From SAR202 cluster bacterium (GTDB taxonomy: Bacteria > Chloroflexota > Dehalococcoidia > Lucifugimonadales > UBA826), in the NCBI GenBank assembly GCA_009392815.1, contig VFFS01000050.1, forward strand, positions 1 through 50,489: 50,489 nucleotides of DNA. The letters run 5' to 3'. This document shows, piece by piece, positions 1,125 through 41,836 of this stretch. The translations under genes were made by a program, and so were the position numbers. How positions within the stretch are numbered: position 1 is the stretch's first letter; every line of letters begins with the position of its first letter. The notes beneath the pieces were generated by a model, which worked only from the letters and a program-made list of their open reading frames with translations, had not been told where the DNA came from and searched no databases.

Positions 1125-2624
1125 CTACTCTGAATCTTCATGTGAGGGACGCCATCTGAGGTCAGGGAAACGTGCCGCCCTAGCTTCATCCAATCGTGTG
1201 TTTGGAGTGAAATGAGGAGCATCGTGAAGGAGTTCCGGGTTCGAATGAGCTTCTTCAGAAATAGTTCTCATAATATCTATGAAAGTATCCAAAGTCTCAA
1301 GAGACTCTGTCTCGGTCGGTTCAACCATAAGCGCTTCTTCCACAATCAGGGGAAAGTACATGGTTGGAGGATGCACTCCGTAATCTATCAACCTTTTTGC
1401 TACATCTAGGGCAGAAACCCCGCAATTATTTTTTAGGTTTCGCGCCGAAAAAACTACCTCATGCATACAAACTCTTTCATAGGGTAGGTCAAAACTATCT
1501 TTCAATCTTTCGAGAATATAGTTGGCATTAACAACCGCGTCATCGCTGATAGATCTTATTCCCTCACCACCCAAACTTCGAATATAGGTAAAAGCTCTTG
1601 CCAATACCCCAAAATTACCTTGGAACGCTCCCATTCGACCTATCGATTGTCCCGGATTGGAGCGTTTAAATACAGATCTGCCATCAATATTCTCTCTACA
1701 AATCACAGGGCTCGGTAAATAATCAACCAATCTGGGACCCGCTATGACAGGTCCAGCCCCCGGCCCGCCTCCGCCATGGGGAGTGGAGAAAGTTTTGTGA
1801 AGATTAGAGTGAATAACATCGAATCCTAAATCACCCATTTTCACTCGCCCCAAAAGAGCATTTAGGTTAGCACCATCACCATACACAATCCCACCTGACT
1901 CTCTGACGATACGTGTAACCTCAAGGATGTTCCTGTCAAATAAGCCAAGAGTACTTGGTAAGGTAATCATTAAGCCCGCCAAATCATCTCCCACGGACTC
2001 TTGCAGGGCATCCAGATCTGTGTTTCCTTCGCTATCCGAAGGTAATGTTTTCACAGTGAATCCTGCCATCACAGCGGATGCTGGATTTGTTCCATGCGCA
2101 CTATCAGGGATCAAAACTACTTTTCTTTGATCGTCTCCACGATCCAGATGATACGCTCTGGCCATCAACATCCCGGCCAATTCTCCATCTGCCCCTGCCA
2201 TAGGTGTCAGGCATGTTCCCGCCATTCCAGTAATTTCTGTTAAATACTCCTGTACTTCCCAAACAAGCTGTAGCGCTCCTTGCACTGTGGCATCATCCTG
2301 AAGGGGATGAATATTAGAAAAACCTGGCATAGACGCAACAAGATCATTCAACTTAGGGTTGTACTTCATAGTGCAAGACCCTAGAGGATAGAAATTATTA
2401 TCTATTGAAAAATTATATTGGCTGATCTGGGTGAAATATCTAACTATTTCCCCCTCACTTACTTCTGGCAGCGGCAAATCCTCACGAATCAGGTTTGATG
2501 GAGGTAAATCAAACTCAGGCACATCCAAATCAGGTAATGTCGCACCAATACGGCCTTCAACGGTACGATCCATCAAAAGTTTTCTAGATTCTTGCTCTAA
2601 TTTGGAAAAAAGTGGCGAAGTCAT
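1125..2624 (-). CDS. gcvPB: Glycine dehydrogenase (decarboxylating) subunit 2, P-protein beta half
   Basis: C-terminal half of the split P-protein of the glycine cleavage system. With the first subunit it decarboxylates glycine on PLP and passes the aminomethyl group to the lipoyl arm of GcvH. The PLP lysine is Lys277 in SNLHKTFSTPHGGGG, numbered from ATG 2624, and the glycine-rich run after it is typical. The ATG overlaps the gcvPA stop as TGATG, so I prefer it to the TTG one codon upstream. Length (499 residues) is normal for the bacterial two-subunit form. It is the last gene of gcvT-gcvH-gcvPA-gcvPB and is translationally coupled to gcvPA. Confidence 0.95.
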   Translation of the reverse strand: MTSPLFSKLEQESRKLLMDRTVEGRIGATLPDLDVPEFDLPPSNLIREDLPLPEVSEGEIVRYFTQISQYNFSIDNNFYPLGSCTMKYNPKLNDLVASMPGFSNIHPLQDDATVQGALQLVWEVQEYLTEITGMAGTCLTPMAGADGELAGMLMARAYHLDRGDDQRKVVLIPDSAHGTNPASAVMAGFTVKTLPSDSEGNTDLDALQESVGDDLAGLMITLPSTLGLFDRNILEVTRIVRESGGIVYGDGANLNALLGRVKMGDLGFDVIHSNLHKTFSTPHGGGGPGAGPVIAGPRLVDYLPSPVICRENIDGRSVFKRSNPGQSIGRMGAFQGNFGVLARAFTYIRSLGGEGIRSISDDAVVNANYILERLKDSFDLPYERVCMHEVVFSARNLKNNCGVSALDVAKRLIDYGVHPPTMYFPLIVEEALMVEPTETESLETLDTFIDIMRTISEEAHSNPELLHDAPHFTPNTRLDEARAARFPDLRWRPSHEDSE

Positions 2625-3943
2625 CAAGATTCACCTATTTCTCTTAGAGCATCTGAAAGGTTTTCTATGTCTTCACGAGAATTCATCTCAGTGACGCATA
2701 AAAGCAGTCCATTTTCCGAATATTCACTAACATCAAAACCACCAATAATGCCTTTTTCTAAAAGTGACTGATTGACCTCTTTGGGCGGAACCGGACATCT
2801 CACTGTGAACTCTCTAAAAAATATACCGGTGCCATATTCAACAATCGAAAAACCTGGAATAGCACTGATAAGGGAAGCAGCGTAATGAGCTTTGTGGTAA
2901 CAAAGTTCCGCCACCTTTCTCATACCTTGCTTGCCCATACAAGCTAAATATACGGTCATCATCAGGGATATTAGTGCAACCGAAGTACAGATATTGGAAG
3001 TGGCATGTTCCCTGCGTATATGTTGTTCCCTAGCCTGGAGAGTTAATACATATGCTTCTTTACCCTGTGTATCGAGAGTTTTACCAACAATCCTTCCAGG
3101 CATCTGTCGAACGAACTCCTGCCTGCAAGCGAATATCCCCACATAAGGGCCTCCATAGCTCATAGGAACACCTATCCCTTGACCCTCCGCCACAACTATA
3201 TCTGCCCCATAATCAGATGGAGGATTAAACATCCCCAGTGACACCGGATCAACTGAGACAACAAGAAGAGCACCCGCATCATGCGCAATATTGGCCAGAT
3301 TCTGCATATCTTCCAAATACCCAAAAAAATTAGGCTGTTGGACGATCAAACACGCTATCTCATCCCCGAGCGTCATATGGCCTTCTTCTACAATCTCCAA
3401 ATCTATTCCAGGAGCCTGGACGTAAGTATCAAGTACATCCGTATACAGAGGAGATGTTGAGTTGAGAATAGCCACTTTATTCCTACGAGTCACTCTGCAG
3501 GCCATCAGTGCCGCCTCAGCCAACGAAGTGGATCCATCGTACATACCGGCATTAGCCACATCCATACCAGTCAACTGACAAATCATAGATTGGAATTCGT
3601 ATGCCACCTGAAGCGTACCTTGTGATACCTCAGGCTGGTAGGGAGTGTAGGCGGTCATGAATTCACCCCTACTGGCAATACTAGACACCACCGCAGGTAT
3701 ATGATGCCAATAAGACCCTGCCCCTAAGAAGGAAGTGTACTCGCCAGCAGAAACATTTCGTGATGAGAGTTCAGATGCATAGGCCCTGAGATCCAACTCA
3801 GACATGGCCTTTGGCAAATTCAAATTAGGATTACGGACTTTTTCAGGAATATCCTTGAATAGATCTTCCACAGAATCCATCCCGATAGTAGCCAACATCT
3901 TCTTCCGATGTTCTTCGGTATTAGGTGTGAAAGGCGAGGACAT
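2624..3943 (-). CDS. gcvPA: Glycine dehydrogenase (decarboxylating) subunit 1, P-protein alpha half
   Basis: N-terminal half of the split glycine decarboxylase, 439 residues. It has the PLP-transferase fold of P-proteins but no PLP lysine, which is supplied by gcvPB. Recognisable segments are the N-terminal TPNTEEHRKKML, YTPYQPEVSQGTLQ, the glycine-rich GVPMSYGGPYVG, and the REQHIRREHATSNICT stretch conserved in these subunits. The ATG shares one base with the gcvH stop (TAATG) and the stop shares one base with the gcvPB start, so three cistrons are tightly coupled. The TGA at 2624-2626 is a true stop, which shows that TGA terminates translation in this genome. Confidence 0.95.
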   Translation of the reverse strand: MSSPFTPNTEEHRKKMLATIGMDSVEDLFKDIPEKVRNPNLNLPKAMSELDLRAYASELSSRNVSAGEYTSFLGAGSYWHHIPAVVSSIASRGEFMTAYTPYQPEVSQGTLQVAYEFQSMICQLTGMDVANAGMYDGSTSLAEAALMACRVTRRNKVAILNSTSPLYTDVLDTYVQAPGIDLEIVEEGHMTLGDEIACLIVQQPNFFGYLEDMQNLANIAHDAGALLVVSVDPVSLGMFNPPSDYGADIVVAEGQGIGVPMSYGGPYVGIFACRQEFVRQMPGRIVGKTLDTQGKEAYVLTLQAREQHIRREHATSNICTSVALISLMMTVYLACMGKQGMRKVAELCYHKAHYAASLISAIPGFSIVEYGTGIFFREFTVRCPVPPKEVNQSLLEKGIIGGFDVSEYSENGLLLCVTEMNSREDIENLSDALREIGES

Positions 3944-38387: not shown

Positions 38388-39557
38388 ATGAGTCTAAGAG
38401 GAAAGGCAGCTATTGTCGGAATTGGTGAAGTTCCAACAAGACGAGTTTACCCGGGTCGTTCCTTAATGGGCCTATGCGCTGAAGCAACGGCATTGGCGCT
38501 TAAAGACGCGGGATTAAAGAAAGAGGACATCGATGGTCTGGTAACCGATGGGGTTGCTGCCCCGCCACAGACTGCTGAATACATTGGAATTAAGCCTCAA
38601 TTTGCCACTGGCGTAGCAATGCAAGGTGCCAGTGGAGCAACCGCCACTATGGTAGCCGCAGCTGCAATAAATGGGGGTATATGCAACACTGTCCTAGTCG
38701 TGATGGGAAATTCCCGAGAAGAAGGTGAGCGCCAAGGAAGGATTGCCGGAAGAGGAGCACCTGGACCTAGTGTACGCTCCGAATGGGAAGAGCCATATGG
38801 AATGGCACCAGGCGCCAATACGGGTTATGGACTCATATACAGGCGCCATATGCATGAGTATGGCACGACAGAAGAACAAATGGCGAAAATGGCAGCCGAT
38901 CAAAGATTTAACGCACATGATAATCATAACGCCGTATTTAATGGACAACCAGCATCTAAAGAAGACGTCCTCAACTCTAGATATATCAACGAACCTTTAA
39001 AACTATTGGAATCAGTCATGCCATGTGATGGCGCTGCTGCTTTGATAATCACTTCTCCAGAGAGGGCTAAATCTATCTCTAAAAGACCTGCCTATATTTT
39101 AGGTGTGGGACTACAACAAGGAGAAGCAAACATATGGCAACGTGAGAAATTCACGGAAACTCCAGCCGTGGACTCCGCCAAAAGAGCTCTTGCTATGGCA
39201 GGGTATCAACCAAGCGATATAGAGTTTGCAGAATTTTATGATTGATACACCATACTCGCGGCCGTGTGCCTCGAAGACGCCGGGCTCGTAGAAAAAGGTG
39301 AGATAGGACCTTTTTATGAATCTACTGATACAACATACAAGGGTGAATTCCCCATAAACACCGACGGTGGACAATTATCTGGTGGGCAGCCAGGTCTAGC
39401 AGGAGGCTTTCGCCACGTTATCGAGGGAGCACGACAGGTAATGGAGAAGGCCGGAAGCAGACAAGTTCAGAAAGATGATTTGTGCTTGGTTAATGGTTGA
39501 GGTGGTACGGCGAGCGAAATGTGCTCGCTTGTCCTCGGGTCCGAGGAAACACTTTAA
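38388..39557 (+). CDS. Thiolase-fold protein read through two in-frame TGA codons (candidate two-selenocysteine enzyme)
   Basis: Read continuously, this frame encodes a full-length 389-residue thiolase-family protein: N-terminal GKAAIVGIGEVPTRRVYPG, the AMQGASGATAT region, LESVMPCDGAAALII, NTDGGQLSGGQPGLAGGFRH, and an ending in GGTASEMCSLVLGSEETL before TAA at 39555. Two TGA codons interrupt it, at residue 286 (Tyr-Asp-TGA-Tyr-Thr) and residue 371 (Asn-Gly-TGA-Gly-Gly). The first falls on the cysteine of the Asp-Cys-Phe/Tyr-Thr motif of SCP2-type thiolases, the second in the glycine-rich C-terminal loop. There is no frameshift anywhere. The thiolase nucleophile Cys is absent (Gly-Ala-Ser-Gly at 80-83). 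The ATG follows TGAGGT; a DUF35 partner gene follows. Selenocysteine is inferred; a pseudogene or base-call error cannot be excluded from the sequence alone. Confidence 0.75.
39246..39285 (+). promoter_or_regulatory. Candidate bacterial SECIS element after the first TGA
   Basis: Starting right after the TGA, the RNA can pair CGGC (39259-39262) with GCCG (39279-39282), then, past a bulged C at 39263, GT (39264-39265) with AC (39277-39278), leaving a loop that opens with G (39268). The 36 bases 39255-39290 contain 26 G or C, well above the flanking gene. Stem quality is moderate. Confidence 0.45.
39501..39532 (+). promoter_or_regulatory. Candidate bacterial SECIS element after the second TGA
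   Basis: GCGAGC (39510-39515) pairs perfectly with GCTCGC (39523-39528) around the seven-base loop GAAATGT. A G-T wobble, a bulged T (39530) and two further pairs (C39508-G39531, A39507-T39532) extend it. The loop starts 16 bases after the TGA and its first base is G, as in bacterial SECIS hairpins. Bases 39501-39546 contain 30 G or C of 46. Confidence 0.6.
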
Positions 39558-39618: not shown

Positions 39619-40047
39619 ATGACAGATACAAGTTCAGCATACGACAGGCCACTTCCAGTCCCAGTACATGAAGATTTATCTAAACCTTTTTGGGAAGCCA
39701 CAAAAAAGCACGAACTCATAATGCCCAAATGCAATTCATGTTCAAGTATCTTCTTTTATCCTAGAGAGGCTTGTCCAGAATGTACTTCTATGGATTTGGA
39801 TTGGACAGAAGTCTCTGGCCAAGGACGTGTGTACAGCTACACACACGTCCGGCAGGCAGTTCATCCTTATTTCCAATCAGAGAACGGCCATATATACGCA
39901 ATAATTGAACTTCTTGAAGGGCCAAAAATACCCTCGAACATTCTGGAATGCGAACCTGAAGACATCTTTGTGGATATGAATGTTGTCGCAACTTTTGAGG
40001 ACCTCAACGACGACTTTACTTTACTAAAATTCAAACCCGGACCTTAA
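39619..40047 (+). CDS. DUF35 zinc-ribbon/OB-fold protein, partner of the thiolase-like protein
   Basis: A 142-residue protein with an N-terminal helix, a rubredoxin-like zinc ribbon with four cysteines (PKCNSCSSIF and EACPECTSMD) and an OB-fold CoA-binding domain starting at WTEVSGQGRVYSYTHVRQAV. DUF35 proteins form complexes with thiolase-fold enzymes. In steroid side-chain degradation the pair (Ltp2 with the DUF35 part of ChsH2) works as an aldolase, and in archaea the protein bridges thiolase and HMG-CoA synthase. It follows the thiolase-like gene by 61 bp on the same strand, with a hairpin in the gap. Confidence 0.93.
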   Translation: MTDTSSAYDRPLPVPVHEDLSKPFWEATKKHELIMPKCNSCSSIFFYPREACPECTSMDLDWTEVSGQGRVYSYTHVRQAVHPYFQSENGHIYAIIELLEGPKIPSNILECEPEDIFVDMNVVATFEDLNDDFTLLKFKPGP

Positions 40048-40159: not shown

Positions 40160-41836
40160 ATGACCCGTATATATGAAATATCTGACCAGCTGGTAGAAAA
40201 AATCGCCTCTATTCACCCTATCGCAGCAACATCTCTTGGTGTACCGGGATATGAAAAGGAGCTGGGAGATTTTTCGCCAGAAGGTATTTCTGAAAGCGCG
40301 AATCTTGCCCGAAACACACTGACTAAATTAAAAGATGTCCCTATTGAAGATGACGCTGATAGAAGAGCGAAAGAGGTGATGGAAGAGGATCTCAAGGCAG
40401 ATGTAGATTCATATGAGAGAGGGGAACCTTTTAGAAAATTAAACATACTATCTTCACCCTTACAGAATATAAGAATGGTGTTCGACTACATGCCACAGGA
40501 AAGTACGGAGGATTGGGAAAATATTGCCTCCCGACTTTCCAAAGTCCCAGATGCTTTGAATGGCTACAAACAAACACTCCGCCATGGTATTAATGAGAAT
40601 TTGGTGTCTACTAAAAGGCAAACAAGTGAATGCTCTAAGCAAGCTCTAACACATTCAGGCAGAACCCATTCAACTTCTTTTTTTACTGATCTTCTGGACT
40701 CCTTTAACCAGTCTAATATTTCGTCAGAGTCACTAGGGTCTGACATAAAAACTGGGGTGGAAAGCGCCATGACCGCTTTTGGTAACTTCAGCGAATTTTT
40801 GGCCTCAGAATATATAAGCCACGCTTCTTCACAAGATGGAGTTGGAGAGGAAAGATATGCCATATCCTCAAATGAATACAACGGAATCACACTCGATTTA
40901 CGAGAAACTTATGATTGGGGATGGGAACAACTTAGGTGGGTTGAATCTGAAATGCGAAAGACGGCAGAAAAAATACTCCCTGGATCCAATATTGAATCTG
41001 CGAAAGCTCTTTTGGAATCTGACTTAAATAGATCCATCGATGGGGTAGACGAATTCAGGAATTGGATGCAAGAACTTCAAGACAAAACTATCGAAGAGCT
41101 AAATGGAACGCACTTCGATATTCCTGACCCTGTTCGAAAAATTGAAGCTCTGATAGCTCCTCCAGGAGGAGCCCTTGCAATGTACTACACCCGTCCATCC
41201 GGAGATTTCAGTAGACCTGGCAGAACATGGTATCCAACCGGAGGGAAAACCCGATTTCCACTGTGGGGAGAAGTTTCTATTGCGTATCACGAAGGAGTCC
41301 CTGGACATCACTTCCAAATCGGCACATCAGTTTTTCTCGAAGAGACTTTGTCTAGATATCAAAGACAACTTGGAGGCACTTCTGGCTATATAGAGGGATG
41401 GGCTCTCTACGCAGAAAGATTGATGGGAGAATTGGGTTATTTAGAAAATCCCGACTATTATCTAGGCATGCTTCGGGCACAGGCTCTAAGATCGGTTAGG
41501 GTGATTATAGATATTGGAATGCATCTGAGCTTGGATATCCCAATGGACTCTGATTTCTATCCTGGATCAACATGGACTCCAGAGCTAGGTTTGCAGTTTA
41601 TACAGAATAGAAGCCACTTCCCAAAAGATTTTGTTGCGAGTGAAATTGACAGATACCTTGGAATTCCTGGACAGGCCATCAGTTATAAAGTCGGAGAGCG
41701 AGCCTGGCTGCAGGCGCGGGAAGAAGCTAAAGAAAGAGAAGGCTCTAATTTCAATCTAAAAGATTGGCACACTAAAGCTTTAAGCCTTGGTGGCATGGGA
41801 CTAGCTCAGATGAAGAGAGAACTTTCAAACATCTAA
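40160..41836 (+). CDS. DUF885-family putative metallopeptidase
   Basis: A 558-residue protein of the DUF885 family, mostly helical. The zinc-type motif is YHEGVPGHHFQ (His377, Glu378, His383/His384), followed by GTSGYIEGWALYAERLMGEL and a further acidic segment, as in M2/M3-like helical metallopeptidases. MARF-like signal sequence is absent, so it may be cytosolic. The predicted role is peptide hydrolysis in nutrient recycling. AAGGAG lies nine bases before the ATG. It converges with the two tRNA genes. Confidence 0.88.
   Translation: MTRIYEISDQLVEKIASIHPIAATSLGVPGYEKELGDFSPEGISESANLARNTLTKLKDVPIEDDADRRAKEVMEEDLKADVDSYERGEPFRKLNILSSPLQNIRMVFDYMPQESTEDWENIASRLSKVPDALNGYKQTLRHGINENLVSTKRQTSECSKQALTHSGRTHSTSFFTDLLDSFNQSNISSESLGSDIKTGVESAMTAFGNFSEFLASEYISHASSQDGVGEERYAISSNEYNGITLDLRETYDWGWEQLRWVESEMRKTAEKILPGSNIESAKALLESDLNRSIDGVDEFRNWMQELQDKTIEELNGTHFDIPDPVRKIEALIAPPGGALAMYYTRPSGDFSRPGRTWYPTGGKTRFPLWGEVSIAYHEGVPGHHFQIGTSVFLEETLSRYQRQLGGTSGYIEGWALYAERLMGELGYLENPDYYLGMLRAQALRSVRVIIDIGMHLSLDIPMDSDFYPGSTWTPELGLQFIQNRSHFPKDFVASEIDRYLGIPGQAISYKVGERAWLQAREEAKEREGSNFNLKDWHTKALSLGGMGLAQMKRELSNI

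Follow-up and report, generated by a model that had tools for sequence, protein, structure and literature searches.

The CtSal-CtShy(DUF35) bile-acid side-chain aldolase of Comamonas testosteroni (PDB 9myr; PMC12329534) pairs a thiolase-fold subunit with a DUF35 partner. In CtSal the motif YDC304Y supplies both base and acid, Tyr302 and Cys304, and the variants C304A, C304S and C304H are inactive (PMC12329534). Gln347 and Gln352 have been proposed to tune Cys304, Gly391 forms part of the oxyanion hole, and a glycine replaces the thiolase nucleophile; the enzyme is incapable of thiolysis (PMC12329534). The TcLtp2-ChsH2(DUF35) steroid aldolase (PDB 6ok1) has a YDHF motif and a second tyrosine (344) as acid. 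In SCP2-type thiolases an HDCF loop, which replaces NEAF, is thought to supply a catalytic cysteine. In classical thiolases the cysteine of the CxG motif lies two residues before the oxyanion glycine.

A catalogue published in 2026, covering 119 families and subfamilies of prokaryotic selenoproteins, contains no member of the thiolase superfamily (PMC13188914). The known multi-selenocysteine proteins of prokaryotes (among them MduS, MbdU and TsoB; Table 1, PMC13188914) share with the protein described here more than one UGA-encoded selenocysteine (Sec) and bacterial SECIS decoding, but none of those listed belongs to the thiolase superfamily. No earlier description of a thiolase, SAR202 or Dehalococcoidia selenoprotein like these was found in the literature searched, from which most subscription journals and preprints are missing.

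A thiolase-superfamily gene with two in-frame TGA codons

The window (the whole stretch of DNA that was analysed) comprises 50,489 nucleotides of a contig from a SAR202 cluster bacterium. On its forward strand, at 38388-39557, lies a thiolase-superfamily gene of 389 residues that ends with TAA at 39555-39557. Translation shows just two internal stops, both TGA and both read here as Sec: codon 286 (39243-39245, forward strand), in a Tyr-Asp-Sec-Tyr motif, and codon 371 (39498-39500, forward strand), in the oxyanion-hole loop Asn-Gly-Sec-Gly-Gly. The Pfam model Thiolase_C_1 (PF22691) aligns with residues 246-384 and spans both TGA codons (E 1.5e-44); NCBIfam thiolase and lipid-transfer models match over the whole length, all below their curated cut-offs. 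Selenoprotein-specific NCBIfam models gave no match to the 389-residue protein. Elsewhere in the window TGA is an ordinary stop: the 37 open reading frames of at least 250 aa end with TGA (11), TAA (11) or TAG (15), the truncated reading frame of the Sec gene being counted among the 11 that end with TGA.

The initial annotation, made without database searches, had claimed that only two TGA codons interrupt the frame, with thiolase-like sequence on both sides of each, that TGA is a normal stop elsewhere, and that no described thiolase-family selenoprotein was known to its author. The first claim is borne out by translation, Pfam and NCBIfam, the second by the window reading frames, and the third holds within the 2026 catalogue and the literature searched. 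Its central proposal, that both TGA codons encode Sec in active-site loops, is supported by the analyses below; selenium incorporation remains an inference without measurement.

Computation shows the fold, the conserved active-site residues and the partner gene. The AlphaFold model (mean pLDDT 85) has its best structural match in the Sal-Shy(DUF35) aldolase 9myr (TM 0.86, 37% identity), followed by a Sphaerobacter thiolase-like protein and then by Ltp2-ChsH2(DUF35). In the alignment with CtSal, the counterparts of Tyr302, Cys304, Gln347, Gln352, Gly391 and the nucleophile-site glycine are Tyr284, Sec286, Gln329, Gln334, Gly373 and Gly80, respectively. Tyr284-Asp285-(Sec/Cys)286-Tyr287 is the Sal-type Tyr-Asp-Cys-Tyr motif, with Sec for Cys in the window gene. 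The SAR202 protein thus shares with CtSal-CtShy the fold, the Tyr-Asp-(Cys/Sec)-Tyr motif, both active-site glutamines, the glycine at the nucleophile position, the oxyanion glycine and a DUF35 partner. It differs in that Cys304 is replaced by Sec286, Thr389 (two residues ahead of the oxyanion glycine) by Sec371, and the oxyanion-hole residue Gln161 by Ala143; moreover, its DUF35 protein is encoded by a separate gene and lacks the MaoC hydratase domain.

With Ltp2 the protein has in common the fold, the DUF35 pairing and the catalytic tyrosine of YDxF/Y, but it carries Gln334 at the site of Tyr344 and Sec or Cys at 286. With SCP2-type thiolases it shares a chalcogen residue in the loop replacing NEAF, but it lacks the nucleophilic cysteine, the motif histidine (the motif being Tyr-Asp-Sec-Tyr) and the GHP histidine. 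Gly80 at the nucleophile position and Gln334 at the GHP histidine position are both invariant in the family alignment. Because nucleophilic cysteine and GHP histidine are absent, we regard the active site as being of the Sal/Ltp2 type and not that of a thiolytic thiolase. The first TGA had been assigned in the initial annotation to the cysteine of the SCP2-thiolase Asp-Cys-Phe/Tyr motif; the assignment is now refined to a Sal/Ltp2-type aldolase site.

The place of residue 371 is less firmly defined. An unmasked profile alignment pairs it with the CxG cysteine of classical thiolases; when 286 and 371 are masked the pairing is unsettled. We infer, with this dependence on alignment in mind, that Sec371 probably occupies the CxG cysteine position. 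By homology, Sec286 and Sec371 are likely to face one pocket, although the distance between the two selenium atoms is unmeasured.

Directly downstream on the forward strand, at 39619-40047, is a gene for a DUF35 protein of 142 aa with a zf-ChsH2 zinc ribbon and an OB_ChsH2_C domain (PF12172 and PF01796). DUF35 homologues lie behind the thiolase-fold gene in the same orientation, separated from it by a median of 33 bp. The cluster was found at 44 loci including the window; many other loci end close to the gene. Genes for CoA-transferases, crotonases and SDR proteins occur nearby in some loci, and no redox partner gene is conserved near the family loci. This neighbourhood fits a putative two-subunit CoA-thioester enzyme. 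After the DUF35 gene, at 40160-41836, lies a gene for a DUF885 protein (PF05960, E 5.8e-136), which is a neighbour in just two other loci.

Distribution of the family and codon states at 286 and 371

Among 118 related genomes, homologues with one or two in-frame TGA codons were found at 53-88% identity; nearly all of those at or below 45% identity have no internal stop. TGA occurs at the equivalent codons, without any other internal stop, in homologues that belong to several families and orders and are about 51-89% identical; sharing of positions to this degree lies far beyond chance. A public genome collection contained 66 family loci (L063-L128), all but one of them in Chloroflexota records (SAR202 cluster, Dehalococcoidia), whose names include marine, Lake Baikal and groundwater sources. 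The Dehalococcoidia-type member L123 (CAMATZ010000011.1) stands in a MAG titled Bordetella parapertussis; the record name is probably wrong. When 400 genomes from the phylum were searched with a strict DNA pattern, only two gave a match; the pattern allows a single arrangement of codons, and the lack of further matches is no evidence that the family is confined to the class.

To compare codon states, 68 distinct family genes were read through TGA and aligned. Codon 286 is TGA in 32 and Cys (TGC or TGT) in the remaining 36; codon 371 is TGA in 61 and Asn (AAC) in three. Every Sec286 gene with a readable codon 371 also has Sec371. Asn371 (L120, L123 and L126; also L164 and L165) is always paired with Cys286. 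No relative has Cys at 371, and Trp aligns at neither site. On the tree, position 286 has changed between Sec and Cys at least seven times and position 371 between Sec and Asn twice. Natural Sec/Cys pairs thus exist at 286 only. At 371 the alternative to Sec is Asn, which is an uncommon substitution and leaves Sec371 without any Cys counterpart. The conserved TGA codons and the Sec/Cys exchange at 286 are shown by these comparisons. On the same basis we infer that the genes very probably constitute a new Chloroflexota selenoprotein family (Dehalococcoidia, SAR202 and relatives), in which Sec371 is nearly universal and is joined by Sec286 in about half of the members.

The initial annotation had suggested looking for Cys in homologues at both sites, and had named random further stops or frameshifts in homologues as grounds for rejecting a selenoprotein. 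Cys was found at 286 and never at 371; TAA, TAG and frameshifts are absent from all aligned family genes that bear TGA. Both TGA codons are also present on a 3.18 Mb contig (OY282441.1, L076) and on a 2.30 Mb contig (CATOSD010000001.1, L088), which makes assembly error an unreasonable explanation.

Purifying selection acts on the codons downstream of each TGA. In close pairs with unsaturated synonymous sites, dN/dS between the two TGA codons is 0.03-0.06, similar to the region before TGA-286; past TGA-371 there are few changes of either kind, which is the pattern to be expected if the coding sequence must also form a hairpin.

Further members came to light when 393 genomes in the class were searched. 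Among them is a deeper branch (L166-L169) in which Sec stands at 371 only and Cys at 286, and which has a CtSal-like NTHGGQ motif. This branch suggests that Sec371 is older than Sec286. Some genomes carry three or four copies of the Sec thiolase-fold gene, and tandem Sec-containing genes occur at L150 (G137:C107:882-2060 and 2133-3317) as well as on G234:C11, G123:C34 and G244:C370. Such multiplicity hints at an expanded catabolic set or at hetero-oligomers.

SECIS-like hairpins and selenocysteine machinery

SECIS-like hairpins were sought with the published bacterial model (apical loop of 3-9 nt, 16-37 nt past the UGA, at most -7.5 kcal/mol; PMC13188914), and nt 22-24 were required to lie within the apical loop. 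The hairpin of TGA-286 (39256-39274, forward strand) covers nt 14-32 from the U of the UGA, with loop CGUGU and -7.1 kcal/mol; it just misses the threshold and is the sole miss among the 32 Sec286 genes. The hairpin of TGA-371 (39508-39530, forward strand; nt 11-33, loop AAAUG, about -15 kcal/mol) meets it. The loop appears to sit at the same place as in the E. coli fdhF SECIS.

Computation shows that these hairpins are a feature of the family. Qualifying hairpins follow 31/32 Sec286 and 59/61 Sec371 codons (97% of Sec sites), as against 14/36 Cys286 codons (39%), one of the three Asn371 codons and 33% of 22,309 other codons in the family genes. Hairpin energies differ between Sec286 and Cys286 genes (p = 2e-8), a value that ignores kinship of the sequences. 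Correction for the tree leaves six independent Sec/Cys contrasts, too few for significance, none of which runs in the opposite direction.

Codon +7 lies in the hairpin loop. After 286 it is GTN in all Sec genes (GTG in 28 of 32), whereas the Cys genes never have GTG and have ATG in 16 of 36; only the Sec286 genes are also nearly uniform for GCC at +6, CTC at +9 and GAA at +10. Codon +7 after 371 is ATG in 61/61 Sec genes and in 0/3 Asn genes. Resampling of synonymous codons gave mean z values of -2.6 at 371 and -0.9 at 286 with Sec, compared to +0.6 and -0.2, respectively, without. Two-sided stem changes were seen at 371 (20-28, T-A/A-T; 21-27, G-C/C-G) and at 286 (16-30, G-C/C-G), and stem-pair changes at both sites exceed those of all slid registers. 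The Rfam SECIS_1 model had no match in the source genome, nor in control genomes, and is hence uninformative; an Rfam scan of the gene returned only weak matches below gathering scores.

The presence of Sec machinery, apart from SelA, in the source genome (1.78 Mb, 88% complete) is likewise shown by computation. Of selA, selB, selD and tRNA-Sec, which the initial annotation had proposed seeking, the last three were found: SelB scored 331 bits and SelD 382 bits, both over their cut-offs (curated in the case of SelB), and the tRNA-Sec has anticodon TCA (UCA). The tRNA-Sec gene (L017:2324-2808, G000:C84) lies directly downstream of a thioredoxin gene and near a cysteine desulfurase gene. SelD (L051:1501-2418; G000:C58:2694-3611) is itself a selenoprotein, with one TGA in CAG-Sec-ASK, a UxxK site, and provides a positive control for Sec decoding in the source genome. 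SelA was not found in this 88% complete MAG. Of the other 25 genomes searched, 24 encode it and the remaining one is 55% complete. By our own count, 25 of the 27 additional genomes in which an internal TGA was verified also have SelA; those without are G209 (90% complete) and G244 (69% complete). SelA is common in the class (254 of 393 genomes), and its co-occurrence is accordingly consistent with Sec decoding but not decisive.

Proposed reaction and rival explanations

We consider the protein likely to be a selenoprotein with two Sec residues that forms the thiolase-fold subunit of a two-subunit, Sal/Ltp2-DUF35-type CoA-thioester C-C lyase, an inference made without activity data. The parts of this reading differ in strength. 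Selenium incorporation is very likely, although it is inferred from sequence alone and without protein or selenium evidence; for a lyase reaction over some other CoA reaction, the balance tips only slightly, by analogy with the nearest characterised enzyme. In the proposed mechanism, Sec would be inserted at UGA-286 and UGA-371 by way of SelB, tRNA-Sec(UCA) and the hairpin directly past each UGA. Tyr284 would take the proton from the beta-hydroxyl of a beta-hydroxyacyl-CoA, and the C-C bond would break; the chalcogen at 286 (Cys304 in CtSal) would then protonate the acyl-CoA enolate, held in an oxyanion hole that includes Gly373. Sec371, in the same pocket, may tune, protect or assist the chalcogen at 286; its role is open.

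There are points against this reading. Sec is a weaker base than Cys and is mostly ionised at neutral pH, and there is no clear reason for it to replace Cys as proton donor. SelA is missing from the incomplete genome, the window hairpin at 286 is weak, and Ala143 stands in place of CtSal Gln161.

A bolder reading, which we regard as possible, is that the two residues form a selenium dyad (a diselenide, a selenenylsulfide, or a selenolate paired with an acid) within a CoA-dependent C-C lyase. This would be chemistry without a sulfur counterpart, which bacteria of the SAR202 type would use to break down resistant organic matter.

Alternatively, 286 and 371 may be a redox pair (diselenide or selenenylsulfide) with no part in proton chemistry, which would switch, repair or shield the active site in oxygenated water. 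In favour of this are the placement of both residues on active-site loops by homology, the co-occurrence of Sec371 with every Sec286 for which 371 is readable, and the mostly redox functions of known selenoproteins (PMC13188914). However, the Asn371 homologues keep Cys286, so that a pair is not required, and the absence of a conserved redox partner gene nearby also speaks against it. We consider this explanation unlikely.

Still less plausible is a thiolase active in thiolysis or acyl transfer that would use a selenolate instead of the absent nucleophilic cysteine, so that an acyl-selenoenzyme would arise. The fold, the likely CxG position of Sec371 and the strong nucleophilicity of Sec would suit such an enzyme, but Gly80 and Gln334 are invariant, as in the CtSal aldolase, which is incapable of thiolysis, and the Asn371/Cys286 members lack any such selenolate.

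That the TGA codons are true stops (through pseudogenization, sequencing or assembly error, or programmed truncation) accords with standard annotation, which would end at residue 285, and with TGA as a normal stop in the genome, but is virtually ruled out by TGA at the same codons in dozens of species, including the one-chromosome assemblies L076 and L088, by the lack of TAA, TAG and frameshifts, by purifying selection past each TGA, and by hairpins that favour Sec sites. Decoding as Trp or Cys without selenium, through a changed code or a special tRNA, gains support from the Cys that aligns with the first TGA in relatives, but can be set aside with equal certainty: TGA ends many window genes, tRNA-Sec(UCA) and SelB are present, Trp occurs at neither site and Cys never at 371, and the hairpins are site-specific; the text of a report on RNA-dependent Cys synthesis in Chloroflexi does not mention UGA (PMC5424206).

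Returning to the two-Sec lyase subunit as the preferred reading, annotation that stops at TGA would truncate genes of this family at residue 285 or 370 across a major deep-ocean lineage. Selenium seems to have entered an enzyme family from which it was previously unknown, and on the tree Sec repeatedly replaces a Cys that is essential in a characterised CoA aldolase; for this reason the natural Sec/Cys enzyme pairs could be used to test what selenium does outside redox chemistry. Should the dyad reading prove true, the enzyme would be the first C-C lyase to depend on Sec, and the thiolase superfamily would gain its first selenoprotein.
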